Below, one piece after another: positions 54,486 to 60,993 of a stretch of 64,000 nt of DNA. A program made the position numbers and the translations under genes. Every line of letters starts with the position of its first letter. The stretch's first letter is position 1. The notes beneath the pieces are model-generated. The model saw only the letters and a program-made list of their open reading frames with translations, had not been told where the DNA came from and did not search any database. Source of the stretch: an uncultured Erysipelotrichaceae bacterium (lineage in GTDB: Bacteria; Bacillota_I; Bacilli_A; Erysipelotrichales; Erysipelotrichaceae); the NCBI GenBank assembly GCA_944325255.1, contig CALUZH010000009.1:62001-126000 (forward strand), in the 5' to 3' direction.

Positions 54486-54514
54486 ATTATATCATCTAAA
54501 GGCAGCATTCTCAA
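54486..54514 (-). promoter_or_regulatory. Promoter of the ferredoxin gene
   Basis: TTGAGA (54509-54514), 17-bp spacer ending TGA, TATAAT (54486-54491) on the minus strand. The -35 overlaps the stop of the ABC ATPase gene. Confidence 0.75.
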
Positions 54515-55239
54515 TATTGAATTTTATCCAAAAATTGTTGAGTCCGCGGCATCTTAGGATGCAGGAAGAAATTTTCCGGATCATTTTCTTCGATAATATG
54601 GCCACCTTCCAAAAAGACAATACGGTTGGCCACTTTACGGGCGAAATTCATTTCATGGGTCACGATCAGCATCGTCATGCCCCGATCACACAAATCTTTC
54701 ATGACCGTCAATACTTCTTTGACCATCTCCGGGTCCAAGGCTGAGGTCGGTTCATCAAATAACATAATCTGTGGTTCCATCATCAATGACCGGGCAATAG
54801 CCGCTCTTTGTTTCTGACCGCCGGATAATTCTGATGGATAACTTTCAAGTTTATCGCTTAAACCGACTTTGGCTAAAAGTTCTTTCGCCTTTTTTAGGGC
54901 ATCATCGGGATTTTCTTTTAAGACCTTAAGCGGCGCTAACAACATATTTTGTTTAACGGTCAAATGCGGAAATAAGTGAAAGTGCTGAAAGACAAATCCG
55001 ATCTTTGAATAAACATAGGCACTGTCGGCATCATTGGTAAAATCAATTTTGCGCTCATCATAATATATTTCTCCCATGTCGGCTATCTCTAAGCCGCAAA
55101 GGGTCCGACAAAGGGTTGACTTGCCACTCCCCGAAGGTCCGATAAGGCAAACTACTTCACCATCATGCAAGGTAAAATCGATATTTTCCAGAGCGATAGT
55201 CGAACCGAACTTCTTGGTCAGATTTAAAGCTTTAATCAT
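54511..55239 (-). CDS. Polar amino-acid ABC transporter ATP-binding protein (GlnQ/HisP-like)
   Basis: 242-residue ATPase with Walker A LIGPSGSGKSTLCRTLCGLE (about 32-51), Q-loop FVFQHFHLFPHLT, signature YPSELSGGQKQRAAIARSLM and Walker B IMLFDEPTSALDPEMVKEVL, and H-loop IVTHEMNFARKVA. It overlaps the permease gene by 4 bases and is the last gene of the three-gene operon behind the T-box. Confidence 0.95.
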   Translation of the reverse strand: MIKALNLTKKFGSTIALENIDFTLHDGEVVCLIGPSGSGKSTLCRTLCGLEIADMGEIYYDERKIDFTNDADSAYVYSKIGFVFQHFHLFPHLTVKQNMLLAPLKVLKENPDDALKKAKELLAKVGLSDKLESYPSELSGGQKQRAAIARSLMMEPQIMLFDEPTSALDPEMVKEVLTVMKDLCDRGMTMLIVTHEMNFARKVANRIVFLEGGHIIEENDPENFFLHPKMPRTQQFLDKIQY

Positions 55240-55919
55240 ATTGTCAACTTCCTTTCAAGCTTATTGGCTATATATGATATGCAAATAGTCATCAAAAGAT
55301 AATAAGCACTGGCCATCAATAAGGGAATCAAGTAATTGTAATAAGTTGTTCCCAAAAGCCGGGCCTGCTGCAAAAGCTCGACGACCCCGATAGTCCCAAG
55401 CAATGAAGAATCTTTGATAAGCATGATAAATTCCGATACAAAGGGGGCAATTAAGCGACGCATAGCTTGAGGTAAAATGATATAGCGCATAATTTGTTTG
55501 CGGCTTAAACCCAAGGTTTTGCCGGCTTCAAATTGGCCCTTATCGATATTAATAATCTGTGAACGGATAAGTTCGGCACAATAGGCACCGGAATTGACAC
55601 TCATGGCCACAATCCCGCAAATATAGATATTGACCCGCAAATAACTGCCGGTAATCATTTGATAAAGTACCGGGAACCCAAGAAAGAAAAACAAGATCTG
55701 TAAAAGCATCGGTGTCCCACGGATAAGTTCAACATAGATATTGCCGATTATTTTCAAAAAACGGTTTTGTGAAAGCTTAAAAAAAGCTATCACAATGCCA
55801 ATCAGCGCTCCCAAAAGAGCGCTGACTAAGGCAATAGACAGACTTATTAAAGCCGCCTTAAACAAAATGGCAAAGTTTTCGGCAGTTAAAATAACTTGGA
55901 TGTTCATTAAATTCCCCAC
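55236..55919 (-). CDS. Polar amino-acid ABC transporter permease
   Basis: 227-residue permease of the HisM/GlnP family with about five membrane segments. The conserved parts are YVELIRGTPMLLQILFFFLG and the EAA motif QFEAGKTLGLSRKQIMRYII followed by LPQAMRRLIAPFVSEFIMLI. A single permease gene implies a homodimer. Overlaps the binding protein gene by 13 bases. Confidence 0.95.
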   Translation of the reverse strand: MGNLMNIQVILTAENFAILFKAALISLSIALVSALLGALIGIVIAFFKLSQNRFLKIIGNIYVELIRGTPMLLQILFFFLGFPVLYQMITGSYLRVNIYICGIVAMSVNSGAYCAELIRSQIINIDKGQFEAGKTLGLSRKQIMRYIILPQAMRRLIAPFVSEFIMLIKDSSLLGTIGVVELLQQARLLGTTYYNYLIPLLMASAYYLLMTICISYIANKLERKLTI

Positions 55920-56710
55920 TTCGTCAATAATTCTTGATATTCTTCACCGGCCATATATTCGCCAAGAAGTTCATTCAATTTGGCAATTAAAGCCGTATTA
56001 TCGGGATTGGTGATGAAACAGTATGAATCACTGGCCAATTCTTCATCCAAGACGGCAAGAGAATCATCGCTGTTGACATAATTCATCGCTACCGAAGTAT
56101 CCAAAACAACACCGTCATAGGCCCCGGTCTTGAGAGCTTCAACCAAGACCTTGGCATCAGTAGCCGTTACAACTTCTGCCCCTTCAATGGTATATGCCAA
56201 ATCAAGACAGGTTGTTCCCAATTGGGCTGCAATCAATTTACCGTTTAAATCTTCGGCATTATGAATATCACTGTCGGCATTTACTAAAACGGTTTGACCG
56301 GCATGATGATAAGGATCACTGAATAATACCTGTTTTTCCGGATCATAGCTGAATCCCGATACTCCTAAGTCTACCTGTTTAGTTTGAACAGCGGTGACGA
56401 TGGTATCAAATTCCATTTGCCGCCACTCAATCGTATATTCTTCACCTAACATTGATACCAAGGCATTCATCAAATCGACATCAAAACCAACAATTTCCCC
56501 GGTACTGCTGTCAAGACTTTCATAAGGTGGATAATCCGGTGAAGTACCGATAATCAAAGTATTTTCCATAATTAAATCAGTATTGAAGTCAGTATTTTCC
56601 GTAACTTCATTAATTTCATCATCACTACTTGGACTTACCTGACTTGGTGAATTGGTGGAGCAGGCTGTTAAAAGTAATAAGGCCGCCAAAACTGCAATTA
56701 ATTTTTTCAT
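55907..56710 (-). CDS. Amino-acid-binding lipoprotein of the ABC importer
   Basis: 267-residue lipoprotein. Signal MKKLIAVLAALLLLTACSTN (lipobox LTAC, Cys about 17), a Ser/Asp/Glu-rich linker, then the SBP_bac_3 fold: LIIGTSPDYPPYESLDSSTG, GFDVDLMNALVSMLGEEYTI and DTIVTAVQTKQVDLGVSGFS. In this family the residue set around DYPPYE, and an Asp-Xaa Asp late on, binds the alpha-amino and carboxyl groups; side-chain specificity cannot be read by eye. The ligand is probably the amino acid sensed by the T-box upstream. AGAAGGAGAAAGAAT precedes the ATG. Confidence 0.92.
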   Translation of the reverse strand: MKKLIAVLAALLLLTACSTNSPSQVSPSSDDEINEVTENTDFNTDLIMENTLIIGTSPDYPPYESLDSSTGEIVGFDVDLMNALVSMLGEEYTIEWRQMEFDTIVTAVQTKQVDLGVSGFSYDPEKQVLFSDPYHHAGQTVLVNADSDIHNAEDLNGKLIAAQLGTTCLDLAYTIEGAEVVTATDAKVLVEALKTGAYDGVVLDTSVAMNYVNSDDSLAVLDEELASDSYCFITNPDNTALIAKLNELLGEYMAGEEYQELLTKWGI

Positions 56711-56740: not shown

Positions 56741-56782
56741 TTAAATATTTTCCTCTTTAATTAATCGTCGGCCATCATTCAT
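56741..56782 (-). CDS. Possible 13-residue leader peptide (MNDGRRLIKEENI)
   Basis: Between the T-box terminator and the binding-protein gene is a 14-codon frame with a strong GGAGG site 9 bases before its ATG. It encodes two consecutive Arg codons (CGA CGA). It lies downstream of the terminator, so it would be made only when the T-box reads through. It could be an accidental start or a short translated leader. Confidence 0.35.
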   Translation of the reverse strand: MNDGRRLIKEENI

Positions 56783-56799: not shown

Positions 56800-57022
56800 T
56801 AAAAAATGCCGCCTTTATATAAAGACGACATCATCGCGGTACCACTTTACTTGTCTTGTTTCCAAGACCTCTCTTCCATAACGCCGGATCGCGTCACTCC
56901 CCTACTTTTATGTTCAGGGCGATATCTCCCAAATGCGTTTCAACGGTGATTTCCTGTCTGCTTCCACCATCCAGACTCGCTTTAAGGCATCATTTCCGCC
57001 TACTACCTTTGTTCATCGATAA
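56800..57022 (-). promoter_or_regulatory. T-box riboswitch upstream of the amino-acid ABC operon
   Basis: The 380-base gap between the importer operon and the coiled-coil gene holds this element. On the minus strand there is Stem I (AGTA, GGCGG...AAAGCGAGTC...CCGTT), then GAAACGCA, the T-box sequence AAAGTGGTACCGCGATGA (56831-56848) and a terminator stem ATGTCGTC.../GGCGGCAT (56806-56831) plus six T. By alignment with the tyrS T-box the specifier is ACG (Thr) at 56936-56938; shifted by one base it would be CGC (Arg, 56935-56937), which restores a purine 3' of the codon. The amino acid is therefore not settled. Confidence 0.9.
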
Positions 57023-57028
57023 TTCAAT

Positions 57029-57090: not shown

Positions 57091-60000
57091 TTATTCCTTA
57101 GAAATGAAAAGCGGATTAATTTTTTGGTCCAGCATATCAATTTCGGCCAATTGTCTTTGTTGGGAAACAAGCTTTTCTTCAAGCTGGTTTTTGGCATCCT
57201 CGAAAAAGACTTCAAAAGTATTCTTAAAGGCCGATAAGGCATCATCAAATTCATTATGGGCCTTGGTAAGCTCCTCCCGTCTTTTGGAAAGCTCGTCAAG
57301 CTTATGCTTATTTTCTTCTTTAAGAGCTTCAATATCACTTGTCAAAAGATTGGTCTTTTCTTGCATTTTCTCCTGCCATTCAAGCTTAGCCTTGGTGAAT
57401 TCAGTATTTAAATCTTCTAAGATATTTGCATATGCTGCTTCACCGTCGGAAGAAGCCTTTTCAAGCTCTTGCAAGGCGCTATTAAAGTTGGTATTTTCTG
57501 CCTCAATATCCTTTTTAAGCAGTTCTTGTCTTTGACTCTCTTCGCTCTTTTTTTGCATATAGTCATCACTTATCTGCAAAATTCGTGTCTCTTCTTCGGT
57601 CATTTCCGCTTCCCGCAATTTAAAGAGCTCTTCCATCTTATTCTTTAAAGCGCCGGTAAAGTTTTCTTCAATGCGGCTCATCGCCGTCAAAACATCGGCA
57701 TTGACATCACGATATGTCTTTTGGGAAAGTAAATAGTCATTTTTGATTTCCCCAAGTTTCAAAACGTAATCATCATAATATTTCTTGTAAGCCAACGGCT
57801 TATCGGCAAAAAGCTGTTTCAGCTCCAGATCGCAATCCTTAAAAAGCTCCTGGCGCTTAGTTATTTGTCCCCGATAAGCTTCAATAATTTCGGCTTTTTG
57901 TTTCTCAATAGCGGCCAGAGCGTCTTTTTTGGCGCTAAATAAAGAATTAAATTCTTCATTGAAAGTTTCTTTGACCATTTCTTGTTTATTAAGATAGGCA
58001 TCAATAACACCCTTTTCCAAAACAATGGCCTTTTGAACTTCATCATTTTTAGCTTCCCAAGTCTCTCTTTCTTCTTTTAAAAGATCGGCCTGTTTAAGAC
58101 AATCATTTTTATAAGCTGCCAGACTTTCATCATAACCTTGACGAATTTTCGCTAATTCCTCATCCTGTAGAGCTTTGGCTTGCGCCAATTCCATCCGTCG
58201 GGCATCAAGTTTAAGGGCGTTAGCCTTTTTAAGTTCTGCCAATTCATCCTTCAAATTTTGAGTGACCATTGCCACTTTGGCATATTCTTCTTTGCCCTTG
58301 GCAATAATGGCTTCTTCATTTTTAAGCAATTCATTTTGCCGCTCATCCAAGGTTTTTAATTGGGCTTCATAGTCAGATTTTACTTTAAGACTTTCGGCAT
58401 TTAAATTTTCTTGATGATTTTTTTGTTCAAAGGCATAGGAAGATCGCAAGGCTGCTAAGGCTGCCTGTAATGATAGGGCATATTGTTCAATCTCAGCTTC
58501 ATGTTGCGCAAGATAAGCCGAAAGATCTGAAGATTGTTTTTGCTTAGCCTTTTCGAGTTCTTGTTTTTTGGCATTAATTGCTTTTTCAAAAGCGCTTAAA
58601 AGCTGATCTTGTTTAGCGAGCTCAAGTTCATATTCTTCATTAGCTTTTTGAAGATTTTTATCCAAATCATCTATTTCGGCCTGCTTGGCATTTTTATAAA
58701 GCTTAAATTGTTCATCCATGGCCTTGATCTTTTTCTCGTTGGCCAGACGGATAGTACTTAGTTCACCCTGGGTTTGCTTATAGGTCGTCATGGCATCGGC
58801 ATAAAGATCTTCTTCATTTTTAAGATCGGCTTTAAGTTTGGCTAAAGTTGCCTCATGTTCTGCCTTTAATAGGGATTTTTCTTCATTTTTAGCCATTTCG
58901 GCATCGATCTTTTCCTGCTCCAAACGGTTTTTAGCGGCCTCATAATCTTTTTTAGCCTGGGCAATGGCGTTTAAGATATCACTGCGCAATACCTGTTCAC
59001 GCGATATCTTAACGGCATTTTCTTCCTTGACATCTTCAATCAAGACCTTAAGCTTGGAATTTTGCTTATTAAGTTCAGCGAAAACCCTTTGAAGATTTTC
59101 TTCATAGGCCGTTTTTTGACTGCTGAACTTGTCATCCATTTCCTTGATTTTGGCCGCATGTTCACTTTTTAAAGTCGCCAAAGCAGCTTGATGACTATCG
59201 GCAAGCTCAGCCATTTTAATATTGTGACTTTGCGTCATTTCTTCTAAAGCAGTTTTATGGACATTTTGGGCCTCAGTTTCTTCCTTTTGAAGCTTGTCCA
59301 TGGCGTCGTCATAATCAAGTTTGGCCTTTTTGGCATCTTCTTTTAGCCGGTCGCTTCTTAAGGCTGTATCTTCAATTTCGCTATTAAGATTGGCAATCCT
59401 TGTCAATAAATCCGACTCATCATTTTTAAAAGCGAAATCCATTTGCATCACTTTTTCCTGATGGGCACTGTTTTCATCACTTAAAAGCTTTTTAAGCTCG
59501 GCAATAGCTTTATTGGCATCCTGAGTCATAGTGATGATGTTTTCTTTCCGTTTCAGCCAATCGCTATTGAGGATATTTAAATCATCGGCAATCTTTTGTT
59601 TAAAAGTACTGAGCTCATTTGTCAAGCGCTCTTTTAAGGATTTGACTTCTTCATTGCGCTTTTGTAATTGCTCATGATAATAATCTTGATCATGCTTATT
59701 TTGTTTACGGAGAGTCGCCTGTTGCAAACGCAAATCATTAATGGCTATTTCATTTTCTTCTTCAAGCTGTTTTTTCTTGGCGGCCAGACTTTGATTTAGA
59801 TTTTCCAAATCTTCTTTTTTTCGCTCTAATTCTTTTTGCAGGCGAGCCATATGGCTTTCATGTTCCGCCTTTTGCCGTTCTAACAATCTTTGATAATTTA
59901 AAGCTTCCGCATTATAGGCATCTTCATAATCTTTTTGGGTTTTAGAAAGCTCAAGATTATAATCCTTTTCCTTATTTGTCTTTGCTTCCTTTAAAGTCAA

Positions 60001-60993
60001 ATACAGGGCATTTAATTGCTTACGATAAGCTTCCGTTTCTTTTTCCCAAGCGGCTTTTTCCTCATCATACATCGAAACTTTATAAGCATAATCAGCCAAA
60101 GCCCGGTCTTTTTTAAGTTCAGCTTGTTTTTTATCTTTTTGGAAGTTTTCCAGACGTCTTGAATAATCATCCTGAAGCCGCTTTTCATGAAGTTCAAATT
60201 GCTTATTTTGTTCGCTCAATTGTCTTTTCAAGCTTTCTTTTTCTTGATTGAGAGCTAAAAGTTCTGAGCGCATTAAAGCCAAGCTGTCTTCATTTTCTTG
60301 TTTAGTCTTGGCAAGATCTTCTTCACTTTGCAGTTTTAAAGTTTCTTTTTCTTGTTCAAAAGTTTCTTCAATCTCTTTCGCATCAAGATCCAAGCTTGAC
60401 ATTTGCTCCATATATTCTTTTTGCAAGCGATTATTTTCATCCCGCAATGAGGCTAATGCGGCATCTTGCTCATTTTGCAATTTACCATAGGCTTCTTCCA
60501 TATCGGCTATAGCTGTTTGATAATCATTTTCCAAAGAATCAAGAGCTTCTTCCTTTTCCTTTATGGCATCTTCCAAAGTCTTTTGCTGCTTATTAAAATC
60601 AGCCTCTAAAATAGATGAGTGCTTTTCAAAAAGTTCTTGCTGTTCATGATTTAAAGAAACAATGTCACTTTTTAGTTTTTCAACATCATTCTTATATTTA
60701 TTTTTGAGTAGAGCCTGTTTATTATCTAATTCAATGCCCTGTTTATAAATAAGCTTGAGATCTTCATCAAGCCTGGCAAAAAAGGCTTCTTCCCTGGCTT
60801 GGCTGTCAGCCGCTTTTTGGGCATAATCTTTCTCAAGCTCAGAATTACGGGCATTAATTTCCTTGATTTTGGTTTTTAATTCGGCATTTTGTTTCTTTAA
60901 ATCATCGAGTTCATTCTTTAATTGACCGGCATCAAATTTATTAATTGTTTTTTTATACCGGTAATTATTAATTTGATCGCTTAATTTGTTCAT
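57091..60993 (-). CDS. Giant coiled-coil protein of unknown function (1,300 residues)
   Basis: Nearly the whole protein is predicted by eye to be long alpha-helical coiled coil: heptad-like runs rich in Glu, Lys, Ala, Leu and Gln with very few Gly or Pro (for example QLKNELDDLKKQNAELKTKI near the start and KNQLEEKLVSQQRQLAEIDM near the end). No signal peptide, membrane helix, ATPase motif or known domain is visible. It is not SMC or MukB (no Walker motifs). The start has GGGGGTATTT and comes 9 bases after the gdhA stop, so it is co-transcribed with gdhA. A scaffold, filament-forming or polar-structure role is a guess. No clear terminator follows. Confidence 0.85.
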   Translation of the reverse strand: MNKLSDQINNYRYKKTINKFDAGQLKNELDDLKKQNAELKTKIKEINARNSELEKDYAQKAADSQAREEAFFARLDEDLKLIYKQGIELDNKQALLKNKYKNDVEKLKSDIVSLNHEQQELFEKHSSILEADFNKQQKTLEDAIKEKEEALDSLENDYQTAIADMEEAYGKLQNEQDAALASLRDENNRLQKEYMEQMSSLDLDAKEIEETFEQEKETLKLQSEEDLAKTKQENEDSLALMRSELLALNQEKESLKRQLSEQNKQFELHEKRLQDDYSRRLENFQKDKKQAELKKDRALADYAYKVSMYDEEKAAWEKETEAYRKQLNALYLTLKEAKTNKEKDYNLELSKTQKDYEDAYNAEALNYQRLLERQKAEHESHMARLQKELERKKEDLENLNQSLAAKKKQLEEENEIAINDLRLQQATLRKQNKHDQDYYHEQLQKRNEEVKSLKERLTNELSTFKQKIADDLNILNSDWLKRKENIITMTQDANKAIAELKKLLSDENSAHQEKVMQMDFAFKNDESDLLTRIANLNSEIEDTALRSDRLKEDAKKAKLDYDDAMDKLQKEETEAQNVHKTALEEMTQSHNIKMAELADSHQAALATLKSEHAAKIKEMDDKFSSQKTAYEENLQRVFAELNKQNSKLKVLIEDVKEENAVKISREQVLRSDILNAIAQAKKDYEAAKNRLEQEKIDAEMAKNEEKSLLKAEHEATLAKLKADLKNEEDLYADAMTTYKQTQGELSTIRLANEKKIKAMDEQFKLYKNAKQAEIDDLDKNLQKANEEYELELAKQDQLLSAFEKAINAKKQELEKAKQKQSSDLSAYLAQHEAEIEQYALSLQAALAALRSSYAFEQKNHQENLNAESLKVKSDYEAQLKTLDERQNELLKNEEAIIAKGKEEYAKVAMVTQNLKDELAELKKANALKLDARRMELAQAKALQDEELAKIRQGYDESLAAYKNDCLKQADLLKEERETWEAKNDEVQKAIVLEKGVIDAYLNKQEMVKETFNEEFNSLFSAKKDALAAIEKQKAEIIEAYRGQITKRQELFKDCDLELKQLFADKPLAYKKYYDDYVLKLGEIKNDYLLSQKTYRDVNADVLTAMSRIEENFTGALKNKMEELFKLREAEMTEEETRILQISDDYMQKKSEESQRQELLKKDIEAENTNFNSALQELEKASSDGEAAYANILEDLNTEFTKAKLEWQEKMQEKTNLLTSDIEALKEENKHKLDELSKRREELTKAHNEFDDALSAFKNTFEVFFEDAKNQLEEKLVSQQRQLAEIDMLDQKINPLFISKE

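Follow-up and report, generated by a model that had tools for sequence, protein, structure and literature searches.

A three-gene polar-amino-acid ABC importer of an uncultured Erysipelotrichaceae bacterium is probably governed by two arginine sensors arranged in series on one mRNA, a T-box and then a leader peptide on which the ribosome would stall. On the minus strand of the stretch of DNA analysed here (64,000 nucleotides, below called the window) the T-box is followed by a terminator hairpin, a short open reading frame and the importer genes (Table 1). Comparison with related loci makes the identity of the T-box and of its specifier codon well supported, and from 88 comparable leaders we strongly infer that the short ORF is a translated sensor of arginine codons.

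Table 1. Features of the importer locus (window positions)
Feature	Position	Strand	Basis
T-box riboswitch, stem I to antiterminator	56818..57025	-	Rfam RF00230
Specifier codon CGC (Arg), predicted	56935..56937	-	Rfam columns and comparative register
Specifier loop	GAA 56941-56939, extra A 56938, 3' purine A 56934	-	sequence
T-box bulge UGGU	56841..56844	-	sequence; variable base U at 56841 opposes tRNA base 73
Intrinsic terminator hairpin and U-run, competing with the antiterminator	56801..56832	-	fold
Shine-Dalgarno box GGAGGTG of the leader ORF	56796-56790	-	sequence
Candidate leader ORF MNDGRRLIKEENI	56741..56782	-	sequence and 88 comparable leaders
Tandem CGA-CGA, leader ORF codons 5 and 6	56765..56770	-	sequence
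Importer substrate-binding protein (SBP_bac_3)	55907..56710	-	Pfam; nearest solved sequence relative 6svf
ABC importer permease (BPD_transp_1)	55236..55919	-	PF00528
ABC importer ATPase (ABC_tran)	54511..55239	-	PF00005; GlnQ/ArtP-like scores below curated cut-offs

The T-box upstream of the importer

The element upstream of the importer is a genuine and complete T-box. It matches the Rfam covariance model RF00230 over its full length (model positions 1-219 of 219) with 123.1 bits at a cut-off of 93 (E = 8.6e-27), and SBP_bac_3, BPD_transp_1 and ABC_tran genes lie downstream, in agreement with the original prediction of a T-box ahead of an amino-acid ABC importer. In the centroid fold the terminator hairpin occupies approximately 56832-56805 and has 12 pairs, and the U-run ends at 56801. 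The architecture, specifier, UGGN bulge and terminator are shared with Arg-class T-boxes of RF00230, whereas the U opposite G73 and the leader ORF behind the terminator set this T-box apart from them.

Counting the importer T-box, there are 18 T-boxes in this genome. One of them, with a UAC specifier, precedes a degradative enzyme (L007, G000:C24; by eye a tyrosine phenol-lyase or tryptophanase), an odd target for a T-box. Directly upstream of the importer T-box, on the minus strand, there is a 1300-residue coiled-coil-like ORF (window 57091-60993) that has no Pfam or NCBIfam family match at the threshold used.

The specifier codon

The specifier loop letters GAA-A-CGC-A contain two overlapping codons, ACG (Thr) at 56938-56936 and CGC (Arg) at 56937-56935. 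The original prediction left the choice open and held that strict geometry favoured threonine, as both this T-box and that of tyrS in the window have an eight-nucleotide loop. The count itself (GAAACGCA and GAAUACGA in tyrS) is correct provided that tyrS is drawn with its A.A mismatch unpaired. However, the alignment to tyrS that placed the specifier at ACG missed a one-base insertion. In the Rfam alignment the target has one additional base ahead of its codon, directly after GAA, where tyrS shows a gap, and CGC occupies the columns where tyrS has its cognate UAC. Since the extra base stands before the target codon, the register derived from the eight-nucleotide count is off by one. The same columns contain the expected codon in 10 of the 10 other T-boxes listed, of 11 matched in the genome (UAC, UUC, AUG, AUG, GUA, AAA, AUC, UGG, UUC and GAC, with gene names assigned by eye). 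Covariance-model alignment with homologues, proposed at the outset as a check of the codon, thus gave CGC and not ACG. The earlier remark that a purine follows CGC and is absent 3' of ACG is true of the sequence (A at 56934).

The relatives have the same register. All 47 importer-linked T-boxes have a CGU, CGC or CGA specifier, 45 of them assigned by script (CGU 26, CGC 14, CGA 5) and two, L141 and L142, by eye (GAAG-CGC in both). Among the T-boxes followed by an Arg-Arg leader (see below) the specifier is CGN in 85 of the 85 scored by script (CGC 51, CGU 29, CGA 5); of the 88 leaders the script missed L212, where the upstream region is cut off, L243 and L260, the latter two reading CGC and CGU by eye. 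Because the base before CG may be A, G or C in the relatives, the alternative register would give codons for Thr, Ala or Pro. Similar CGN T-boxes are found upstream of argG in relatives. According to the accessible text on the TBDB database, CGC is the commonest Arg specifier, with a share of 0.52, and ACG has a share of 0.01 among Thr specifiers (PMC7778990).

The pairing of the T-box with tRNA base 73 points the other way. This base is G in all four tRNA-Arg genes and A in all three tRNA-Thr genes of the genome, and the variable base U of the importer T-box would form a U.G73 wobble with tRNA-Arg and a Watson-Crick pair with A73. In the other T-boxes of the genome the discriminator pairs by Watson-Crick rules in 17 cases out of 17, 13 having U with A73 and four C with G73 (Trp twice, Asp and Ser, gene names by eye), and the Arg T-box with its U is the only exception. 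In relatives, all 26 tRNA-Arg(ACG) gene calls end in GCCA (20 of 24 genomes matched; the calls include overlapping loci, so that one gene may be counted more than once), and 82 of 88 T-boxes with Arg-Arg leaders, as well as 14 of 17 at argG, have U as the variable base. As the relatives combine a G73 tRNA-Arg with a T-box U, the U.G73 pair appears to be normal for Arg T-boxes of this group. The same pair is given for 46% of Trp T-boxes in the accessible TBDB text (PMC7778990). Base 73 alone can thus mislead in codon assignment.

A threonine-specific T-box (ACG, tRNA-Thr(CGU)) on a threonine importer would have in its favour a tRNA-Thr(CGT) gene with A73, the pairing of the T-box U with A73 that is found in all 13 T-boxes of the genome for tRNAs with A73, an argument that the original prediction did not mention, and the loop count that matches tyrS. 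However, the Rfam columns give CGC, homologues would read GCG or CCG in the ACG register, CGN T-boxes precede argG, ACG is rare among the Thr specifiers of TBDB, and the thrS T-box of this genome has an ACU specifier in a different loop sequence. Despite base 73, we reject the threonine reading because of the Rfam register and the relatives, and give it a very small probability. Hardly more credible is a two-codon T-box in which the overlapping ACG and CGC are used by tRNA-Thr(CGU) and tRNA-Arg(ICG), respectively. Both codons do overlap within the loop, and the U can form a regular pair with A73 and a wobble pair with G73. One T-box of Clostridium is reportedly of the two-codon kind. Possible multi-specificity is mentioned in the accessible part of the TBDB text (PMC7778990). 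But the base that creates ACG is A in 42, G in 33 and C in 10 of 85 relatives, with no sign of conservation. The arginine reading (CGC) is supported by the comparison of the T-boxes, and we consider the codon assignment settled; of the two readings in the original prediction, that of threonine is not supported, and the covariance-model geometry favours CGC.

The argS gene, which had been cited in favour of arginine together with the Arg-Arg leader ORF, is real (TIGR00456, 507 bits), as is the ORF. Near argS, a cluster of tRNA genes for Cys, Leu, Arg(ACG), Pro and Met (G000:C9:126221-126653) starts approximately 220 nt past the end of the window. The tRNA-Arg expected to serve both sensors is thus encoded beside argS.

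The leader ORF and its relatives

In the window the stop codon of the leader ORF ends 13 nt ahead of the Shine-Dalgarno box of the downstream gene. Forty-one long ORFs of the window contain 698 Arg codons, of which 46 are CGA, and 33 Arg-Arg pairs, none of them CGA-CGA. The remaining 17 T-boxes of the genome all lack CGACGA within 140 nt.

Homologues of the binding protein were sought in 145 genomes of the family, 130 of which had a match, and 52 loci besides that of the window were scanned for RNA families. T-boxes were found at 16 of 16, 13 of 16 and 17 of 20 scanned loci, giving 47 with the one in the window. In this set, chosen regardless of the leader, CGACGA or CGACGT occurs within 140 nt of 14 importer-linked T-boxes, and the leader is absent from the other 33. 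The Arg runs of these 14 homology-found leaders contain CGA in 34 of 36 codons. A loose pattern (ACCRCG..TTTTT..CGACGA) matched 117 of 272 genomes of the family, but the reversed control also gave chance matches. When the pattern was tightened with GTGGYACCGCG, it was present in 83 of 315 genomes from the order, representing 20 of 79 genera, and its reversed control in 0 of 315. Outside the order there were three pattern matches among 343 genomes (from a class sample of 395), and none was genuine on inspection (L333-L335). The pattern match in G266 looks like a chance match.

The fetched pattern matches and the homology loci together gave 89 distinct leaders, and 88 after L259, which has a TTG start and was judged a chance match, had been dropped. 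Identical leader sequences were counted once, hence L225 and L270 have no separate row; of the pattern matches the set covers those that were fetched, and those in G019 and G067 are not among them. Spacing and folding were analysed in 85 leaders, as L230, L252 and L256 lack a downstream start within the sequence retrieved.

As expected for leader-peptide attenuation, the ORFs contain tandem cognate codons: in 88 leaders out of 88 the CGA pair lies in the reading frame of an ATG or GTG further upstream. A Shine-Dalgarno-like motif precedes the ORF in 87 of them, the exception being L178, and in 86 of these 87 the first Arg codon is one of codons 2-7. This bears out the hunch in the original prediction that the Arg-Arg leader ORF matters. 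By eye, the downstream genes mostly encode binding proteins; argG, recognised by the YSGG motif, is downstream of 17 of 85 leaders. Three genomes from another family within the order also have the element, always at argG, with the leaders MKERRSS (one genome) and MKVRRRELSFDS (two genomes).

What is kept across the leaders is the start, the Shine-Dalgarno box and CGA-CGA, while the rest of the peptide and the stop vary freely. In the 85 leaders the distance from the stop to the next start ranges from -963 to +149 nt, and 34 ORFs run open through the next start. The distance from the first Arg codon to the next start is at least 50 nt, with a median of 68 and quartiles of 62-73.

The leader ORF continues in frame into the binding protein at L057, L206, L216, L222, L228, L232, L237, L249, L262 and L268, so that some binding protein may bear an Arg-containing N-terminal extension. 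Arg T-boxes (CGU or CGC) without the leader were observed at L149, L151, L152, L154-L157, L163 and L166-L168, where the first gene is a different one and the binding protein is further downstream.

A candidate mechanism with two arginine sensors

In the T-box family, binding of an uncharged tRNA lets RNA polymerase pass the terminator. At the importer the CGC T-box would bind uncharged tRNA-Arg(ICG), and the polymerase would read through. Behind the terminator a ribosome would then start the leader ORF, meet CGA-CGA within a few codons and, if charged tRNA-Arg were short, pause there. One tRNA, with anticodon ACG and inosine at position 34, presumably reads CGA, CGC and CGU and serves the T-box specifier, and a pause on arginine shortage is to be expected because CGA is the codon that this same tRNA-Arg(ICG) reads worst. 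Arg pairs containing CGA are described as slowly read and as causing ribosome stalling in Salmonella, in the accessible text of PMC4046918.

The known ways in which a stalled ribosome acts were considered one after another. A terminator or antiterminator past the leader codons is unsupported on average in the 85 leaders: the mean fold z-score from the Arg codons to the next start is -0.24, and a run of five T is present in only eight of them. For 14 of the 85, one of two tests gave a z-score of about -2 or below; these include leaders with inverted repeats around the leader start (L173, L175, L180-L183), and thus some leaders may differ from the set as a whole. Such inverted repeats, rare elsewhere among the leaders, occur in L147, L173, L175 and L180-L183, and pair the leader start with the stretch behind the CGA codons or place CGACGA in a loop.

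Sequestration of the importer Shine-Dalgarno box was rejected as a general mechanism, as opening it costs 0.57 kcal/mol in the free leader, 0.63 kcal/mol with the stalled ribosome masked in and 0.90 kcal/mol in shuffled leaders (n = 85); it is thus cheap, nearly unchanged by the stall and easier than in the shuffled sequences. In the anti-TRAP (rtpA) leader of Bacillus subtilis the leader stop codon reportedly adjoins the downstream Shine-Dalgarno box. Here, over the 85 leaders, no constraint placing the stop near that box was found. The ATGA overlap of a leader stop with the next start was dropped as evidence of coupling, since the frame alone yields it whenever the next gene begins with ATGA. 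Given the folding, opening-cost and spacing results, neither hairpin attenuation nor sequestration or occlusion of the Shine-Dalgarno box fits the whole set, and because the stop is unconstrained and there is no attenuator structure on average, the known mechanisms of leader peptides would need modification to apply here.

A ribosome paused at the CGA pair, no less than 50 nt ahead of the importer start, should not cover the importer ribosome-binding site. Parked just behind the terminator, it would leave room for a second ribosome at the start of the importer or argG. As a guess, and the reading we prefer, the stall would keep expression on during shortage, either by protecting the 5' region of the mRNA or by halting ribosome traffic towards the importer start. 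We give somewhat less than an even chance to the leader stall keeping the importer on. More tentative still is a two-step arginine control across the lineage, with the T-box and the tandem-CGA leader reading the same tRNA-Arg(ICG); the leader would act through a parked ribosome, and neither through RNA structure nor through the stop codon. If this is true, the parked ribosome would license or protect the mRNA only while arginine is short. The fixed start, CGA-CGA and spacing, set against the free stop and peptide, yield a testable prediction, namely a stalled ribosome that acts without RNA switching.

The stall might instead switch the importer off, as a brake at very low arginine. A leader with Arg codons in Staphylococcus aureus, rbfL, does so by covering the downstream ribosome-binding site, according to the accessible text of PMC13009471. 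We consider this unlikely for the importer, as rbfL overlaps the downstream Shine-Dalgarno box, whereas in the 85 leaders the first Arg codon is separated from the next start by the distances given above. The leader might also have no sensing role, being a ribosome-loading site that stabilises the processed mRNA, with incidental Arg codons. The Shine-Dalgarno-like motif that almost every leader has directly after the terminator and the free variation of the stop and of the peptide after the Arg pair agree with such a role. However, the preference for CGA in the Arg runs of the motif-independent set, compared with its rarity in the ORFs of the window, and the finding that every scored T-box with the leader has a CGN specifier, make it quite improbable.

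Relation to known systems

To our knowledge, the only established case in which a T-box is followed by a regulatory leader peptide is anti-TRAP of B. subtilis, with tryptophan. There a T-box and tRNA-dependent ribosome stalling act on one mRNA, according to the accessible text of PMC11255114. The importer locus resembles it in having a T-box and a candidate leader peptide for one amino acid on the same mRNA. In anti-TRAP these are a Trp T-box and a leader with Trp codons (Chen and Yanofsky 2003, 2004), so that the amino acid and the genes differ, as does the position of the stop, unconstrained in the Arg leaders. Here this series logic would apply to arginine, in many diverged sequences and ahead of genes of two kinds. 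A search of the open-licence literature found no report of an arginine leader peptide behind an arginine T-box.

Tandem Arg codons are also found in orf34 of speF in Salmonella, where two consecutive Arg codons sense arginine and stalling stabilises the mRNA (PMC6386406, accessible text), a precedent for a stall that maintains mRNA activity. Unlike the Arg leaders, orf34 depends on alternative structures, Rho and RNase G, and its stop position matters; the accessible part of that paper does not mention a T-box (PMC6386406). The short ORF rbfL senses arginine by rare Arg codons, but these are AGA and AGG, and it represses by covering the downstream Shine-Dalgarno box; its main text nowhere uses the term T-box (PMC13009471). 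Histidine leader attenuators of Erysipelotrichales and other bacteria demonstrate runs of cognate codons in leader peptides of Firmicutes. They have terminator and antiterminator hairpins and, in the accessible text, are reported without a T-box (PMC9413887), whereas the Arg leaders on average have no such structure.

The importer and its substrate

By sequence, the binding protein is closest to 6svf and 4prs, which we take to be structures of the Thermotoga arginine-binding protein, and it also matches ArtJ. Its best NCBIfam match is the Lys/Arg/Orn model, with a score of 119 at a cut-off of 256, and no NCBIfam equivalog for the amino-acid specificity of the importer reached its cut-off. Since this best match falls below the cut-off, arginine as the probable substrate is deduced from the regulator.

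In such binding proteins a conserved arginine binds the substrate carboxylate. In L057, L141, L142 and the protein encoded in the window, the conserved arginine after SG[FM]-x-Y is replaced by lysine, whereas most other aligned relatives have arginine.

Two of the scanned loci without a T-box, L058 and L059, encode paralogous binding proteins of a sister genome and of this genome. Both have a lysine riboswitch (RF00168, 91.7 and 86 bits), and thus lysine probably regulates another importer of this class.
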